From an uncultured Hyphomicrobiales bacterium (GTDB taxonomy: Bacteria > Pseudomonadota > Alphaproteobacteria > Rhizobiales > Beijerinckiaceae): DNA of 64,000 nt. The notes beneath the pieces are model-generated. The model made no database searches. It was not told where the DNA came from and saw only the letters and a program-made list of their open reading frames with translations. Location: positions 1-64,000 of the forward strand of contig CAINED010000024.1 of assembly GCA_903847605.1 (NCBI GenBank). Direction: 5' to 3'. The position numbers and the translations under genes are program-made. How positions within the stretch are numbered: the stretch's first letter is position 1; each line of letters starts with the position of its first letter. Shown one piece after another: positions 49,392 to 58,092 of this stretch.

Positions 49392-49676
49392 CTATTGTGG
49401 CTGCCTGCCGCGGATCGCCTGCCAGACGAGGAGCAGCAGGATCGCGCCGAGGGTGGCGACGATGAGATGTCCCAGCGTGCCGCGCACGACGATGTTCAGC
49501 ACATCGGCCAGTTGCACGCCGACGAACGAGCCGGCGACCCCGACGATGATATTGGTCAACAGGCCATGATTGGACTTCGTCACGCGCTCCGCGATCCAGC
49601 CCGCGATCGCCCCGATGATCAGCATCATGAAAAAGCCGACGCCCGGCGTGCCCAATGCGGGATAGACTTGATTCAT
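49392..49676 (-). CDS. GlsB/YeaQ/YmgE-type small stress membrane protein
   Basis: A 94-residue hydrophobic protein with three membrane helices. It has the family's glycine-rich repeats (MLIIGAIAGWIAERV, TNIIVGVAGSFVGVQLA, LIVATLGAILLLLV). It was historically labelled transglycosylase-associated; the function is unknown, with a stress link in relatives. It lies about 100 bases upstream of lipA and about 80 bases downstream of the caspase gene. Confidence 0.88.
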   Translation of the reverse strand: MNQVYPALGTPGVGFFMMLIIGAIAGWIAERVTKSNHGLLTNIIVGVAGSFVGVQLADVLNIVVRGTLGHLIVATLGAILLLLVWQAIRGRQPQ

Positions 49677-49758: not shown

Positions 49759-52700
49759 TCATTTCATCTTCGCGAGCAATTCCTTCGCCTTCGCGCTTCC
49801 AAGGCCCGACGCAAGTTGCAAAAGGCGGCGCGCCTCGGGCAATTCGCGCTGGCCGAAAGTGCCGGCATTGAGCGCTTCGGCGAGATAGACGATGGCGCCG
49901 ACATTCTGCTTGCTGGCGCTCGTTTCGAGAAGCTTGCGGGCGCGCTGGAGATCACGGGTCACGCCATCGCCGAAAAGCAGGAGATGAGCGAGGTTCACTT
50001 CCGCCTGGATGATCTTGCCATTGCTGACGATCACCTCGAGCAGTTCGACGGCGCGTCCGTGATTTTTCGACAAGCCATCGCCATTGATATAAGCGACGGC
50101 CAGATCGTTGCGGGCGCTGTCGCTGCCGAAGTCCGACGCTTTCTCCAGCCACTCGAATTGCAGCTTGCGATCAACCTCGACGCCAAGTCCATGTTCGTAA
50201 AACTTGGCGATGGCCCACATAGAGTCGGGATGGCCGACTTCCGAGCCGCGCTGATACCATTCGCGCGCCTGCGTATAGAACTTCTTCTGGTCCTCGCCCT
50301 TGGCGCTCGACGCGCGTTCGCGGAAATGCGCGCCGAGATTATACATGGCGATGGCAAAGCCGTTTTCAGCCGCTTTCTCATACCATTGCGCGGCTTGCGC
50401 GGGATCGCGCGGAACGCCCCTGCCCCGGTCGTAGAGATTGCCGACCCAAAGCTGCGCGAAAGCCGATCCTTTTTCCGCAGCCAGACGGAAGACGCGCATG
50501 GCGTCGAAATAACGGCTGGATGCGACGTAGGCCCGCCCGAGTTGATTGGCGTAACGCAAGGTATTCGGCGACCTCGCCAGGGCCTGCTCGCAGGCCGCCA
50601 CGGCTTTTGCCGTATCGACTTGCGCCGCAGCAGGAACCACAACCGAGCGGAGCGGGTCGTCGTTATCCCCTGCCGTGCGGTCGCAGGTCTCGCCCGCTGC
50701 TGCGTCCGTCATCGCAGCGCCGGTCATGGATGTCAGCATGGATTTGGCGACGGAATTTCCGGCGGCCGCAGCCTTTTCCACCCACCGCCGCGCGCCCGGC
50801 TCGTCCGTTTCGCCGAACGCCCCGGCGAGGAGCGCCTGCGCCAGCGTTACCATGGCTTCGGGCACGTCGGCGCCTGCGGCCTGCTCGAGCAAGCCCTTCG
50901 CCTTTTCCATTTCGCGCGCGCCGCCGAAGCCGGAAATATAAAGCTGCGCGAGACTTTGCATGGCGCGCGTGTCGTTTGCCGCCGCCGCCTGCGCATACCA
51001 TTGACGCGCCAGCGCGTAGTTGCGCACGATGCCTCGGCCATTTTCGTAGATATCGCCGAGCAGTCGCATGGCTTCTGCGTCGTCTTTTGCCGCCGCTTTT
51101 TCGAGCCAGATGCGCGCCTGTACGTAGTCCCGCCGCACGCCGGTCCCGTTGTAGTAGGTCCGTCCCAGCATGCGCATCGACAGGCCGTGGCCCGCCTCGG
51201 CAGCTTCCTCGTACCACCGCCGCGCCAGAGGGTGACCGATCTTCACGCCATCGCCCTGCTGCAGGGCGAGCGCAAGATTGAACATCGCATCGGGCGACCC
51301 GAGCTGCGCGGCCTTTTCGAACCAGTCGGCCCCCAGCGTCGAGTTCTTGGCGACGCTCAATCCGCGCGCATGGATATTGCCAACCCAGAGAGCGGCATAG
51401 GCCGCGCCCTTTCCCGCAGCCGTCTCGAAGACCCGCAGCGCATCCCCGTAGCGGTCGTCCTGGATATAGAGCACGCCAAGCTGGTTCTGATAACGAAGCA
51501 TATCCGGATTTTCACGCACCGCCGCCTCGCAGGCCGGAATGCCCTTGGCGGTGTTGAGGCTGAGCGGCGGCTTCACATTTGCCGGGCGCAGAGGATCGGT
51601 CTGCCGCGCCGCGAGCCGGTCGCAGGCCTCGCCCGAAGTTTCGGGCCGGTCGAGCCGCGCAAGCTGCTCGCGCGAAAGCTCATCGTCGGTGTCGACTCCG
51701 CGTTGCAGCCACTTGCGGGCCTCTACCTTGTCCGGCTGGCCGAAGATGCCTTCTTCGAGCCACTGGGCGAGAATGCGTATGGAAACCACATCGTCGTGAC
51801 GTGCCGCCTGCTCGAGATGCTTGCGGGCGAGCGCAAAGTCTTTTTCGACGCCCTCACCATAAGCATAGAGCAGCGCGAGACCGAGATGGCCGCTGCTGTG
51901 ATTCAGACGAACGGCGCGCTCGAACCATTCGCGCGCACGCTGGTAGTCGCGCGGGAAACCACCGTTGCCCTCGCGGAACATCGCGCCGATATGGCCCATC
52001 GCGGCCGCATCGCCCGCCGCAGCGGCCCGATCGAAGAGGCGGCGCGCTTCCTCGAAGTCGCGTGGACCGGCAATGCCAAACTGATGATAAAATCCGAGCG
52101 CCGTCAGCGCCGTCGGCTCTTCGGTCGCTGCCGCCTTGACGAGAATTTCCCGGGCCTTGGCGCTGTCGATCTCGCCGCCCCAGCCCTCATTATAGGCCTG
52201 CGCCACGGAGACGAGCGTCGAAGGCTCGTTCATGGCCAGCGCGCGCGTGTACCACTGGCGAGCCGCCGCCTGATCACGGGGCACGCCGATACCCTTGCCC
52301 ACGATATAAGCGACATTGGTCATTGCCATGGGCACGCCGAGCCGCGCGCCCTTCTCGCTCCACAGCAACGCCGCCTTGTAGTCGCGCGCGACGCCGCCCC
52401 AGCCGCGATAATAGAGAAAGCCCATGTCGGCAGTGGCGAAGGCTGCGCCGCGCTCGGCGGCGTCGCGGTAAATGCGCACGGCGTCTTCCTCGCGCCGCGC
52501 AGCGAGATAGGCGCGCCCGAGCTGGTTCGCATAGCGCAACACGCCGGGCGAGGCGGCAACCGCCTTTTCGCAGGCGGGAATGGCGCGCTCCCAGTCGACA
52601 TTCTTGACCGGAGGTACGTCCTTGCGGCGAAGGGGATCAAGCTGCGAAGTCGCGAGCCGGTCGCACATCTCGCCATCGGTATTCGCAGGCTTTGCCGGTG

Positions 52701-53649
52701 TGTTGGGCGCGGGCGCGCGCTGCGGACCGCCTTCCCTCGTCTGCGCAAGGCTGCGCGCCTGTGCGCTGTTGCCGGGCGCGAGCGAGGCCTGCTGGATCGG
52801 TTGCTCCACGGGTTCGCCGGCAAGATAGATCGGCCTGATGAGCGAACTGTTTTCCCATGGCACCTGCCTGCTCTCCGTGGCGCGGATCACATCGAAGCGC
52901 ACCTTCATCATCAGCCTGCCGAAGTCGAGGCCGGGTTCATGGATGTGGTTCAGAAGCGCTCGCGAGAAGGGGGAATTCCTGCCGTCGCCGTCGGAGGCGA
53001 CATTGCCGGGGTCGGTCGCAAAGACAATAATAGTACCGAGAGAGCTTTTGATTTCCGCAAGCCCGCCGAATGGATTTTTCGTTGCACGCGTCGCGGGTCC
53101 CGCCAAAGTCTTGGCGAAGGGATTGTCGCGGCAGGCGTCCATGATGATGATGCTGACCCTTTCGGGCCCGCGCATCTGCTGCATGATCGCATCGAGATCG
53201 ACGGCTTCGAGCTTCACATCCTCTGCAGAGTCGATCTTCGCGTCGATGGGCAGAATATAGTTGCGGCCGTCGACCTGCATGCCGTGGCCGGCGTAATAGA
53301 GCAGCGCCAGCGACGCCTTCTGGAGTTTGGCGCGGAATTCGCGCGAGCGGCGCTCGATGCCGCGCTTGTCGAGATCGGACGTTTCGATGACATCGAAACC
53401 GAGTTTGCGCAGGGCCGCTGCGACATCGGCGGCGTCGTTCACGGGATTGGTGAGGGGCTTTTCGGGATAGGCCGAATTGCCGATGACTAGCGCGACTTTG
53501 TCGGAGGCGTATGCAAACGTGCCGGCCGACAACAAAAATAGCGCGTCAAAGAGTGCGAGGATTATGCTGCTCGCCTTCTTGCGCAAATTCTGTCGCGCCC
53601 TGACCGGGCGCAACAGGCGCAAAAAGTGCGTCATCCTCGGCACGTTCAT
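49759..53649 (-). CDS. Secreted caspase-fold (peptidase C14) protein with three TPR/SEL1 modules
   Basis: A 1296-residue protein. A signal or anchor segment (about 25-48, ending AYAS) suggests export. The caspase p20-like domain (about 50-280) keeps the dyad: His122 in YYAGHGMQ and Cys173 in MDACRDNP. A Pro/Ala/Gln linker follows. Three homologous modules then begin near 326, 673 and 986, each opening CDR-A...DPLR and continuing ACE-A...LRY-NQLG with a TPR-like helix pair and about six to seven SEL1 repeats. Cysteine pairs 329/360, 676/707 and 989/1020 all have spacing 31. The ATG overlaps the upstream caspase-like gene by four bases. It is probably a periplasmic protease or regulator; its target is unknown. 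Confidence 0.9.
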   Translation of the reverse strand: MNVPRMTHFLRLLRPVRARQNLRKKASSIILALFDALFLLSAGTFAYASDKVALVIGNSAYPEKPLTNPVNDAADVAAALRKLGFDVIETSDLDKRGIERRSREFRAKLQKASLALLYYAGHGMQVDGRNYILPIDAKIDSAEDVKLEAVDLDAIMQQMRGPERVSIIIMDACRDNPFAKTLAGPATRATKNPFGGLAEIKSSLGTIIVFATDPGNVASDGDGRNSPFSRALLNHIHEPGLDFGRLMMKVRFDVIRATESRQVPWENSSLIRPIYLAGEPVEQPIQQASLAPGNSAQARSLAQTREGGPQRAPAPNTPAKPANTDGEMCDRLATSQLDPLRRKDVPPVKNVDWERAIPACEKAVAASPGVLRYANQLGRAYLAARREEDAVRIYRDAAERGAAFATADMGFLYYRGWGGVARDYKAALLWSEKGARLGVPMAMTNVAYIVGKGIGVPRDQAAARQWYTRALAMNEPSTLVSVAQAYNEGWGGEIDSAKAREILVKAAATEEPTALTALGFYHQFGIAGPRDFEEARRLFDRAAAAGDAAAMGHIGAMFREGNGGFPRDYQRAREWFERAVRLNHSSGHLGLALLYAYGEGVEKDFALARKHLEQAARHDDVVSIRILAQWLEEGIFGQPDKVEARKWLQRGVDTDDELSREQLARLDRPETSGEACDRLAARQTDPLRPANVKPPLSLNTAKGIPACEAAVRENPDMLRYQNQLGVLYIQDDRYGDALRVFETAAGKGAAYAALWVGNIHARGLSVAKNSTLGADWFEKAAQLGSPDAMFNLALALQQGDGVKIGHPLARRWYEEAAEAGHGLSMRMLGRTYYNGTGVRRDYVQARIWLEKAAAKDDAEAMRLLGDIYENGRGIVRNYALARQWYAQAAAANDTRAMQSLAQLYISGFGGAREMEKAKGLLEQAAGADVPEAMVTLAQALLAGAFGETDEPGARRWVEKAAAAGNSVAKSMLTSMTGAAMTDAAAGETCDRTAGDNDDPLRSVVVPAAAQVDTAKAVAACEQALARSPNTLRYANQLGRAYVASSRYFDAMRVFRLAAEKGSAFAQLWVGNLYDRGRGVPRDPAQAAQWYEKAAENGFAIAMYNLGAHFRERASSAKGEDQKKFYTQAREWYQRGSEVGHPDSMWAIAKFYEHGLGVEVDRKLQFEWLEKASDFGSDSARNDLAVAYINGDGLSKNHGRAVELLEVIVSNGKIIQAEVNLAHLLLFGDGVTRDLQRARKLLETSASKQNVGAIVYLAEALNAGTFGQRELPEARRLLQLASGLGSAKAKELLAKMK

Positions 53650-54428
53650 TCTCCGGCCAGATAGACTGGAAGCAAGAGACGACTCGCTTCCTGCACAAGC
53701 ACTTTGCCGCCTGTCGCTCTAAGCACGTCGAACCGAATCGGCTTAAAAGCCAGCGAGATGTCGACGCCGCGTTCGGGGAAACGGCTTAGAATAGCACGGG
53801 TCAGAGAACTGTTGCGTTGCCCCGCCTCCTCAGAATGTTCCACGTCCGATGCAATCACGATTGCATGGAGCCTTACCACATTCAAAGTCGACAGCGGAAA
53901 GCCTGGCGCCAAAGCCCGGCTTGCGCCATGGAGGTTGATGTCGAGCGACTGAAATTTCGTCGTACGCGACGCATCTAGGATTACAACATGGGCGCGGCCA
54001 TCTTTAGCTGCACTCCATGCGCCCATGCGAGCGAGCACCACGCTCAATGGCAGGCCGCTGCCCAGCAATGCGTTCTTGCTTTCAATGGAAGCATCCACCG
54101 GCAGAAGGTGCTGGTCGAGAGAATGGCCCGAAAAATAGAAAAGCGCGAGCGTCGACTTGTCAGCCTCCTCAAGGAAGCGCTCGAATGCCTTCGCAAGCGC
54201 CGGACCTGCCAGATCCCGAGAGATCAAAACCCTGAAACCGGCTTCTCCCAGACGCCTCGCGACATCGTCAGCATCGGCAATAGCCGTCGGAACCGGCGTC
54301 TCGAATTTGTAGCCGCCATTGCCGATGACGAGAGCGAGCTTGTCGGAAGCATGCGCAGACATTCCGGCCGCAAGGGCAGCGGCCAGCAATAACGAACGAA
54401 ATACCACACGGATCGTCGGAAATGACAC
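53646..54428 (-). CDS. Secreted caspase-like protein with Ser in place of the catalytic Cys (pseudocaspase)
   Basis: A 260-residue exported caspase-fold homologue. The signal peptide (about 1-27, ending SAHAS) is followed by DKLALVIGNGGY, parallel to DKVALVIGNSAY in the downstream protein. His102 is kept in YFSGHSLDQH, but the cysteine position reads ILDASRTTK, Ser154 instead of Cys. The end, RFDVLRATGGKV...LPVYLAGE, also matches the neighbour's RFDVIRATESRQ...RPIYLAGE. It lacks the SEL1 modules. It lies just upstream with a four-base ATGA overlap, so the two are probably made together. Likely an inactive partner or regulator of the active caspase. Confidence 0.85.
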   Translation of the reverse strand: MSFPTIRVVFRSLLLAAALAAGMSAHASDKLALVIGNGGYKFETPVPTAIADADDVARRLGEAGFRVLISRDLAGPALAKAFERFLEEADKSTLALFYFSGHSLDQHLLPVDASIESKNALLGSGLPLSVVLARMGAWSAAKDGRAHVVILDASRTTKFQSLDINLHGASRALAPGFPLSTLNVVRLHAIVIASDVEHSEEAGQRNSSLTRAILSRFPERGVDISLAFKPIRFDVLRATGGKVLVQEASRLLLPVYLAGE

Positions 54429-54506: not shown

Positions 54507-55292
54507 TCACGAAGCGCGCACTGCGCCCGCTTCGGACAGTCCGCGCCAGACGAGCATCGCGCCGCCCAGAAACACCATCGCCTCGATCAGCAGATCGTGA
54601 ATGCGGATCGGCATGCGCTCAACCAGCCAGCGCGCGGTGAACGCGCCGGGCACGGCGGCTATGCCAATGACCAATGCCATGGCCCAAAGGGCGGGCGTGA
54701 GCGCCCCTGCCGACTGGAAAACGACCGTCTTCGTCATGCCCATGACGACGGAAATCGCCGCATCCGTCGCGACGACTGCGCGCCCGTTCAGCCCCGCCGC
54801 CATGAGGATCGAGAGAAGCACGATGCCAGAGCCAGCCGTGCCGCCGGCAAGAAGGCCGTAGCCGAAACCCGAGCCGCCCAGCGCCGGACCGCTCAACGCA
54901 AAGCCGGATCTTTTAAGCCAGCGTTTCACCGGCACGAGCGCCATCAGCGTGCCGCCGATCACAACGGCCGCCGTCGGACCCGAGAGCAGCGAATAGAGCC
55001 ATGCACCGATGGCGCATCCGGGCGCCGCCACGAGCGAGAGCATCCCGGCCTTGCGCCAGTCGACGAGGTGGCGAAACGCTACGAGCCGGCTTGCATTGTT
55101 GAAGATCGCGGAAATGCCGATAACGGGAATGGTCGCTTCCGCGCCGATCACGGGCACCAGCACAAGCGGCAGGATCAGCCCGCTGCCATAGCCGGTGACG
55201 CCGCCGAAGATCGACGCCATACCGCCAACGAAGGCGACCAGTAGCAATTGCCACAGCGTCACGCCGAAGAGGGGCAGATTTCCGTCGTGCAT
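54507..55292 (-). CDS. TSUP-family membrane transporter (TauE/SafE)
   Basis: A 261-residue integral membrane protein with about eight helices in two repeats. Family glycine motifs are GGMASIFGGVTGYGSGLILPLVL and, in the second half, GLLAGGTAGSGIVLLSILMAAG. Members export or import sulfite, sulfoacetate, taurine-derived or other small organic anions. No sulfur-metabolism genes are adjacent, so the substrate is open. It lies downstream of a hairpin repeat and lpdA, and 78 bases from the caspase-like gene; whether it shares a transcript with either is unclear. Confidence 0.85.
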   Translation of the reverse strand: MHDGNLPLFGVTLWQLLLVAFVGGMASIFGGVTGYGSGLILPLVLVPVIGAEATIPVIGISAIFNNASRLVAFRHLVDWRKAGMLSLVAAPGCAIGAWLYSLLSGPTAAVVIGGTLMALVPVKRWLKRSGFALSGPALGGSGFGYGLLAGGTAGSGIVLLSILMAAGLNGRAVVATDAAISVVMGMTKTVVFQSAGALTPALWAMALVIGIAAVPGAFTARWLVERMPIRIHDLLIEAMVFLGGAMLVWRGLSEAGAVRAS

Positions 55293-56911: not shown

Positions 56912-57400
56912 TCACTTCGTCGGCGTCACCGAGGCGACGCAGTTTTCGTTGAGCTGATAGAATTTTGTTTCGACAGGCCCGGTATCGGCGGGCTTGCCGG
57001 CCTGCGCCGTTTCGGCGAGCGCCTCAAGGTCGCGCGTAATGGCGGTATAGGGCTCTCGCAACTTGCCGGCGTTGAAGTTCGCGAGATAGGTCGCGACCGC
57101 CGCAAATCGCGTCACGCTGCGGCGCGCATCGAAACCCATCTCGGCGATTTCCTTCTCGCCGTAAACGGCGCGACTGGCGCGCGCGAGACGCTCGATGCGC
57201 AATTCCGCTTCCATGAAATATTCGACGGCTTCGCGGCAGGCCCGCATGGTTTCGCGATGAGTCACGTCGCGCGCGAAAACGCCGACCGCCTGCGTGTTGA
57301 GATAACCCTGATACATCGCCGTGCACAGGGAGAGCGCGGCCACGAAAATGGAGATGTGCGTGGCGTTGAGGTTCAAAGAAGGAGTATTGCCATTGGACAT
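56912..57400 (-). CDS. Unrecognised membrane-anchored protein
   Basis: A 162-residue protein with no recognised family. One N-terminal hydrophobic segment (about 14-33, HISIFVAALSLCTAMYQGYL) should anchor it. The rest is helical and charged, with Arg/Glu-rich stretches (MEAELRIERLARASRAVYGE) and a terminal NENCVASVTPTK. Base composition is normal for the window, unlike the gene just upstream. Its ATG shares a base with that gene's TAA (TAATG), so the two form a coupled cassette lying between pdhC and lpdA. Confidence 0.72.
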   Translation of the reverse strand: MSNGNTPSLNLNATHISIFVAALSLCTAMYQGYLNTQAVGVFARDVTHRETMRACREAVEYFMEAELRIERLARASRAVYGEKEIAEMGFDARRSVTRFAAVATYLANFNAGKLREPYTAITRDLEALAETAQAGKPADTGPVETKFYQLNENCVASVTPTK

Positions 57401-58092
57401 TATTGTGTCTTTCCATCCACAACAGCGTTCATGGTGGAATTTTGAAGTAGTATTCCCATTTCATAGTCCAAATAGCGAACTAACTCGATCGGTTCTGGAT
57501 TGTTGTGAAATTTGACACGCGCAATACAAGTCACTTCGTCTTCTGTCAGATAAGAAACGGCGAATGAATTAGCGCCATCGCGCATGCGGAACCAGCTACC
57601 ATACTGACCTTTTCCAAAATACTTTCCAAAATAATAATCGACATAGTCGATATCATTAAGTCGTGCCGGACGAAAATTTCTATCCTGGTCCAACTCAGGT
57701 AGTATCTTCTCCGACTTGAGGTATACTATAATGTTATATGGATACTTCGAATTGCCACTCAATGTTGTCTGGTGCACCAGCCGAATAAATTCCGAACTGT
57801 ATCGAATAACTTTGCGAGAGTTAAAATCGCCCTCTGTCGCAGCAATCTCATCAAATTCGTTGCTTTTCAAGAAGAGATCATAACCCTTTCGGCCTGTGTT
57901 AGCACTTACGGGCAGTGGCGCCGCCTTGAGTTCAATTCCCGCGACTTTAATGGATTCATCGTTCGCGACTCTTCGAAGTAAAACTTCGCAAAACGATTTT
58001 GTTTCTTTGCGAAAGTAAATCAGTATCGCAAAGATCGTGAGTGGCATGACCACGATCTTTAAGACTTCTATGATTTGCGCGCCAACAGCCAT
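57400..58092 (-). CDS. Unrecognised AT-rich-gene protein with N-terminal membrane helix
   Basis: A 230-residue protein of unknown function. One membrane segment lies at about residues 9-27 (VLKIVVMPLTIFAILIYF). The cytoplasmic part contains many Tyr, Asn and Asp residues (DIDYVDYYFGKYFGKGQYG). The gene is visibly richer in A+T than any neighbour and uses AT-ending codons, pointing to recent acquisition. It is translationally coupled to the anchored protein at 56912. Its layout (one helix plus a soluble domain, coupled to a second membrane protein) is reminiscent of small defence or stress cassettes, but there is no motif to support that. Confidence 0.72.
   Translation of the reverse strand: MAVGAQIIEVLKIVVMPLTIFAILIYFRKETKSFCEVLLRRVANDESIKVAGIELKAAPLPVSANTGRKGYDLFLKSNEFDEIAATEGDFNSRKVIRYSSEFIRLVHQTTLSGNSKYPYNIIVYLKSEKILPELDQDRNFRPARLNDIDYVDYYFGKYFGKGQYGSWFRMRDGANSFAVSYLTEDEVTCIARVKFHNNPEPIELVRYLDYEMGILLQNSTMNAVVDGKTQ

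Follow-up and report, generated by a model that had tools for sequence, protein, structure and literature searches.

The 64,000-nucleotide window analysed here (positions 1 to 64,000 of contig CAINED010000024.1, from assembly GCA_903847605.1 of an uncultured Hyphomicrobiales bacterium of the Beijerinckiaceae) carries two adjacent caspase genes on its reverse strand: a long gene encoding an active-type caspase fused to Sel1 repeats, and a short gene upstream of it, overlapping it by four bases, that encodes a bare caspase domain without the catalytic cysteine. The features considered are as follows.

53646..54428, reverse strand: short gene, 260 amino acids, GTG start, signal-type N-terminus and caspase domain only; a His-Ser (HS) pseudo-caspase
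49759..53649, reverse strand: long gene, 1296 amino acids; a signal-type N-terminus and an active-type caspase domain are followed by three CDR...ACE modules and Sel1 repeats
53646..53649, reverse strand: ATGA overlap of the short gene's stop and the long gene's start, read from the DNA
53649..53735, reverse strand: last 29 residues of the short protein, at the place of the caspase fold's last strand, 55% identical to the partner
52804..53514, reverse strand: caspase domain of the long protein, as used for structure modelling
54507..55292, reverse strand: TauE/SafE-like gene directly upstream of the pair, which two congeners have close to lipA in the absence of the pair

Both proteins are members of the Peptidase C14 family (PF00656) by its curated cut-off of 21.4 bits, the long one with 140.2 bits at residues 51-274 and the short one with 51.8 bits at residues 30-242, and their caspase domains are 35% identical over 248 alignment columns. 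A PADLOC scan of these two proteins alone, for anti-phage defence systems, returned only a weak match to a generic caspase profile (31.6 and 34.1 bits). The Sel1 match of the long protein reached 319.2 bits, with nine stretches individually significant, and a GGAG precedes the ATG of its gene. Signal-type N-termini are present in both proteins (cleavage, read by eye, between AHA and SDK and between AYA and SDK), and the long caspase-like protease is probably exported. An earlier sequence-only reading had described the two frames with their caspase landmarks and signal-type N-termini, the four-base overlap and the Sel1 fusion of the active member, and all of this held.

Alignment sets His102 and Ser154 of the short protein opposite His122 and Cys173 of the long one, again as first read, and with Ser in the Cys column the short protein is a pseudo-caspase by loss of the dyad. 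The short protein has zero cysteines over its whole length, so no alternative cysteine could occupy its active site, in agreement with the same reading. The long protein has seven, all invariant across a five-sequence alignment: Cys173 and three pairs spaced 31 residues apart (329/360, 676/707 and 989/1020), which would suit disulphides in an exported protein. Each pair belongs to one of the three CDR...ACE repeats (residues 329-360, 676-707 and 989-1020), which lie between the Sel1 repeats and whose layout suggests internal triplication as well as disulphides.

Orthocaspases, in the sense of PMC6426788, have a p20 but no p10 part. The predicted structures of both caspase domains align over the entire caspase domain of the MALT1 paracaspase, up to residue 563, with 24% and 28% identity in the top alignments; MALT1 itself differs in being an animal signalling protease with other domains. 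Where other active caspases are conserved to 90% or more, the short protein preferentially keeps the residue (23 of 38 columns, against 9 of 53 columns with less than 30% conservation). Of 400 neutral simulations that started at the long sequence and ran until 36% identity was reached, with all divergence placed on one lineage under one mutation model, none left an open frame. By this measure the fold of the short protein shows the mark of past selection. Identity between the two proteins is uneven: in 30-column windows it is 20-30% from the nucleophile across the loops behind it, as well as around residues 62-91. The two ends are the most alike, with 53% at the N-terminal one and, at the C-terminal one, 16 of the last 29 residues identical, as opposed to 68 of 208 elsewhere (Fisher p 0.023, for a region picked post hoc). 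The last strand is the dimer interface in animal caspases, and this C-terminal identity is a hint, the sole indication here, of a heterodimer.

Comparison of 226 caspase domains, the short one included and gathered with both short and long proteins as queries, ranked all eight members of the long clade closest to the short domain (93.9-123.6 bits; the next match scored 92.0), which gives it the look of a duplicated copy of the partner. The partner in the window ranked 6th of 211 active domains for the short protein, behind five of the partner's own orthologues; in other mixed active/inactive neighbourhoods (ten comparisons with nine inactive domains, L211 being left out as too short) the neighbour ranked 66-193 of 211 or 212, except at L145, where it ranked 16. 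On this ranking the two proteins look like an active caspase and a paralogue that has diverged from it. The tree cannot settle the origin of the short protein, because its branch is very long, at about 4 changes per site. In the unconstrained tree it groups, with weak support, with two rows to which it is unrelated, and its placement was dropped as evidence of origin for both reasons; a joint clade of short and long was neither rejected (p-AU 0.458) nor established.

A PF00656 search of 45 family genomes, the source genome and the window's short domain included, yielded 86 domains in 31 genomes, with the dyad, entered by hand from alignment output, resolved in 77 (unresolved or misaligned rows L093, L238, L239, L247, L273, L275, L303, L304 and L305 were dropped). 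These comprised 41 His-Cys (HC) and 36 non-HC domains, half of the latter with YA or RA, and the available part of PMC6426788 counts 582 pseudo-variants among 3,075 alphaproteobacterial orthocaspases (18.9%), 561 of the 582 in Rhizobiales. Dyad loss is therefore ordinary in this family, a pseudo-caspase is nothing noteworthy in itself in these bacteria, and we rejected general rarity as a source of surprise, 36 of 77 family dyads not being HC. An HC caspase within 5 kb of a non-HC domain was found in 3 of the 36 family cases (the window, L201 and L202). A sample of 49 genomes of the order, with neighbours picked by eye among the matches listed, gave six HC/HC loci (L200, L233, L358, L361, L362 and L365, the caspases of L365 lying about 7 kb apart), four loci with at least one unresolved Cys (L359, L360, L363 and L364) and no mixed active/inactive locus outside the source genome. 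A general excess of active/inactive neighbours was also considered and is unsupported by both samples. Among 80 of at least 581 named loci, with flanks of up to 5 kb, a second caspase domain was present in nine, two of them dyad-less (L115 and L145); the mixed neighbours L024, L061, L201, L202 and L209-L212 were reached via similarity or twin matches and yield no rate. Over the loci examined, a probable paralogous active/inactive pair within one overlapping operon is uncommon.

Other arrangements of caspases came to light in these searches. The source genome holds a second tandem pair (L092, G000:C80, 4782-7133 and 6320-10075), both members with Tyr/Ala for His/Cys, 58% identical to each other and with the caspase domain as the sole Pfam match in either frame. 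At L202 (2588-7540) and L201 (2626-8056; genomes G301 and G366) a His-Ala pseudo-caspase with an FGE-sulfatase domain lies on the same strand upstream of an active-type caspase whose C-terminal end is an outer-membrane beta-barrel-like domain; at the corresponding locus of G512 (L366) no His-Ala pseudo-caspase of this kind was found. At L145 (1405-5189; JAFKKL010000139.1, a Hyphomicrobiales bacterium metagenome-assembled genome) the frame of an active-type caspase overlaps that of the next, a Tyr-Leu pseudo-caspase with Sel1 repeats, and at L209 (3616-7362) and L210 (2629-6175; G526 and G552) Phe-Ala and Phe-Ser pseudo-caspases lie tail to tail with an active-type caspase, TPR repeats being present in the pseudo-caspase of L210, the one of the two that was scanned.

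Bacterial pseudo-caspases are abundant, their role is unsettled, and most in the family sample lie apart from active caspases. As far as the available text of PMC6426788 goes, the pseudo-orthocaspases of Rhizobiales share with the short protein a caspase fold without the His-Cys dyad; their common dyads, however, are YS, YA, FS, QC and HA rather than HS, and they carry TPR or trypsin-like domains or prolonged C-termini, whereas the short protein is a bare domain whose gene overlaps that of an active relative. The available part of PMC3501461 reports 20 predicted operons that each encode two or more caspase homologues, Alphaproteobacteria included, Sel1 in 6.0% of sequences and dyad conservation of 75% in Alphaproteobacteria, and raises inactive homologues as possible negative regulators; such multi-metacaspase operons resemble the pair in holding several caspases, and Sel1 fusions are reported there too, but an active/inactive operon pair is not among the arrangements described there. 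Literature titles and abstract openings described no bacterial active/inactive caspase gene pair, which is not proof of absence from print. The sequence-only reading, too, knew of no described pair of this kind. Pseudo-caspases and multi-caspase operons in Alphaproteobacteria are already published in the same two papers.

Our best single guess, held at a probability of roughly 0.38, is that the short protein acts as a cFLIP-like partner of the long caspase. The short gene would have arisen by duplication of the 5' portion of a long-type gene, signal peptide and caspase domain together. The nucleophile and a large part of its active-site environment would then have disappeared, while the fold and the last-strand region were retained. 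Its product would be co-produced and co-exported with the active caspase and may bind the partner's caspase domain as cFLIP-L binds caspase-8, either damping or triggering the protease, which the Sel1 part would present to substrates. cFLIP-L and caspase-8 are animal, cytosolic proteins with death-effector domains and in this are unlike the window pair. The likeness is to the proposed role, since in the available part of PMC6426788 the inactive homologue is a dimerisation partner of the active caspase (PDB 3h11 also figures in the structure comparisons of the two models); the same paper describes Trypanosoma brucei TbMC4, an inactive metacaspase that works with the active TbMC3, but which differs from the short protein in having the dyad YS and in being processed by its partner. 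A role of the pair in protease control is possible. The fuller claim, a bacterial counterpart of caspase-8/cFLIP in which an exported protease is co-translated with an inactive paralogue of its own, the two form a heterodimer via the last strand and the arrangement arose independently in one lineage, we regard as rather doubtful. If true, it would contradict a published expectation: on the view taken in the available part of PMC6426788, the pseudo-orthocaspases of prokaryotes in all likelihood have no part in regulating active ones.

That expectation is one of several points that weigh against a cFLIP-like partnership, and distribution is another. The short protein was used as query against overlapping draws from the order (397 genomes), the family (199), the genus (51) and a further family, f28 (15). 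The matches listed include no orthologue of the short gene, the best of them being caspase domains of long proteins at no more than 39% identity. A scan of named genomes with the same query gave no match, and a plasmid search gave only caspases below 60% identity (175 records). Orthologues of the long gene were present in five f28 genomes (four align over the full length at 47%; the remaining one, L094, is at the edge of a short contig), and one genome of the genus has two copies, at 70% (residues 46-936, where the contig stops) and 55%. No second caspase domain lies upstream of any of these seven in the upstream sequence fetched, which for the 70% copy is only about 360 bp, with no caspase reading frame in it. 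Across the genomes searched there is no second copy of the pair, and its co-occurrence is not conserved. The sequence-only reading had named three outcomes that would speak against it, and two of them occurred: the pair was not found outside the source genome in what was searched, and the nearest homologues, the caspase domains of long orthologues, keep the cysteine. Of the periplasmic proteolytic switch that it proposed, the coupled pair, the member without a nucleophile and the export-type N-termini remain, whereas conservation of the pair and loss of the cysteine in homologues do not.

The remaining adverse points concern the short protein itself. The tree places it apart from the long protein, with weak support (52/97) and a very long branch, and it has only 5 of 16 signature residues of the long clade. 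The C-terminal match is not unique, since one other long-clade domain also reaches 55% and the remaining members 38-52% (for 204 active domains outside the clade the mean to the same end is 30% and the maximum 52%), and the N-terminal window, at 53%, is as similar as the C-terminal end. The GC content at third codon positions (GC3) of the short gene is 0.60 and its value on a codon adaptation index (CAI)-like scale is 0.52, lowest but one of 34 chosen open reading frames (ORFs) of the window, which suits weak expression, relaxed selection or youth; weak or young selection on the short gene is possible.

These same observations, namely a short gene confined to one genome among those searched and absent from the approximately 360 bp upstream of the congener's 70% orthologue, a branch of about 4 changes per site, and lowered GC3 and codon adaptation, would be explained by a lineage-specific duplicate that is being lost and is expressed merely through its operon position, without a lasting role. 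We consider this somewhat unlikely. The frame, start, stop and signal-type N-terminus of the short gene are all intact, and this, with the preferential retention of conserved columns and the failure of every neutral simulation to keep the frame open, indicates that much of the divergence arose under constraint. Alternatively, the short protein may work independently of the long protease as an exported binding protein, its caspase fold holding on to peptides or to a protein of the envelope. Other pseudo-caspases may do likewise, and those of the family are mostly solitary (an active-type caspase within 5 kb in 3 of 36); those lone pseudo-caspases, however, sit in longer open frames, whereas the short gene encodes a bare domain and overlaps an active homologue whose clade matches it best, and we find this explanation unlikely.

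It is quite improbable that the short protein is a Ser-His hydrolase with a switched nucleophile, acting through Ser154 and His102: it does retain His102 and Asp152 and has Ser at the nucleophile position, but the Gly after the His and the residues after the nucleophile are altered, the alignment to the long protein opens a four-residue gap after the His, and its structural model is at its least certain beyond the nucleophile. A sequencing or assembly artefact, whether base error or chimera, is barely credible even for a single draft genome of 92 contigs, since it would take two changes to turn the Ser154 codon (TCG) into either Cys codon, which speaks against a base error, and the protein has zero Cys and many co-ordinated changes, the pair being flanked by genes on either side within a single contig of 163,730 bases. 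A bare inactive domain co-translated with an active protease of its closest clade is a simple test case for caspase regulation by inactive relatives in bacteria.

The pair lies between lipA and the TauE-like gene, which are 5.2 kb apart in the window. A lipA match was present in 46 of 50 congeners, and 29 loci were taken with 1.5 kb flanks: an lpd-like gene lay 457-1102 bp upstream of lipA in 15, among them the two nearest by lipA (G519 and G602, with spacings of 1038 and 1040 bp), a TauE-like gene lay about 515 bp upstream in 2, neither was within reach in 12, and a caspase match was found in 0 of the 29 within these flanks. The site without the pair is thus seen in 17 congeners, by which the presence of the pair here is, on these loci, patchy and lineage-specific. 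The names lipA and TauE come from profile searches; lpd and pyruvate dehydrogenase (PDH) E2 are presumed names. An ORF at 57400-58092 has a GC content of 0.43 within a window of 62% GC and no NCBIfam match; it looks foreign and sits between what we take to be the lpd and PDH E2 genes. Between the long gene and lipA, a small membrane-type ORF of 94 residues (49392-49676, reverse strand) presumably resembles the GlsB/YeaQ stress proteins.
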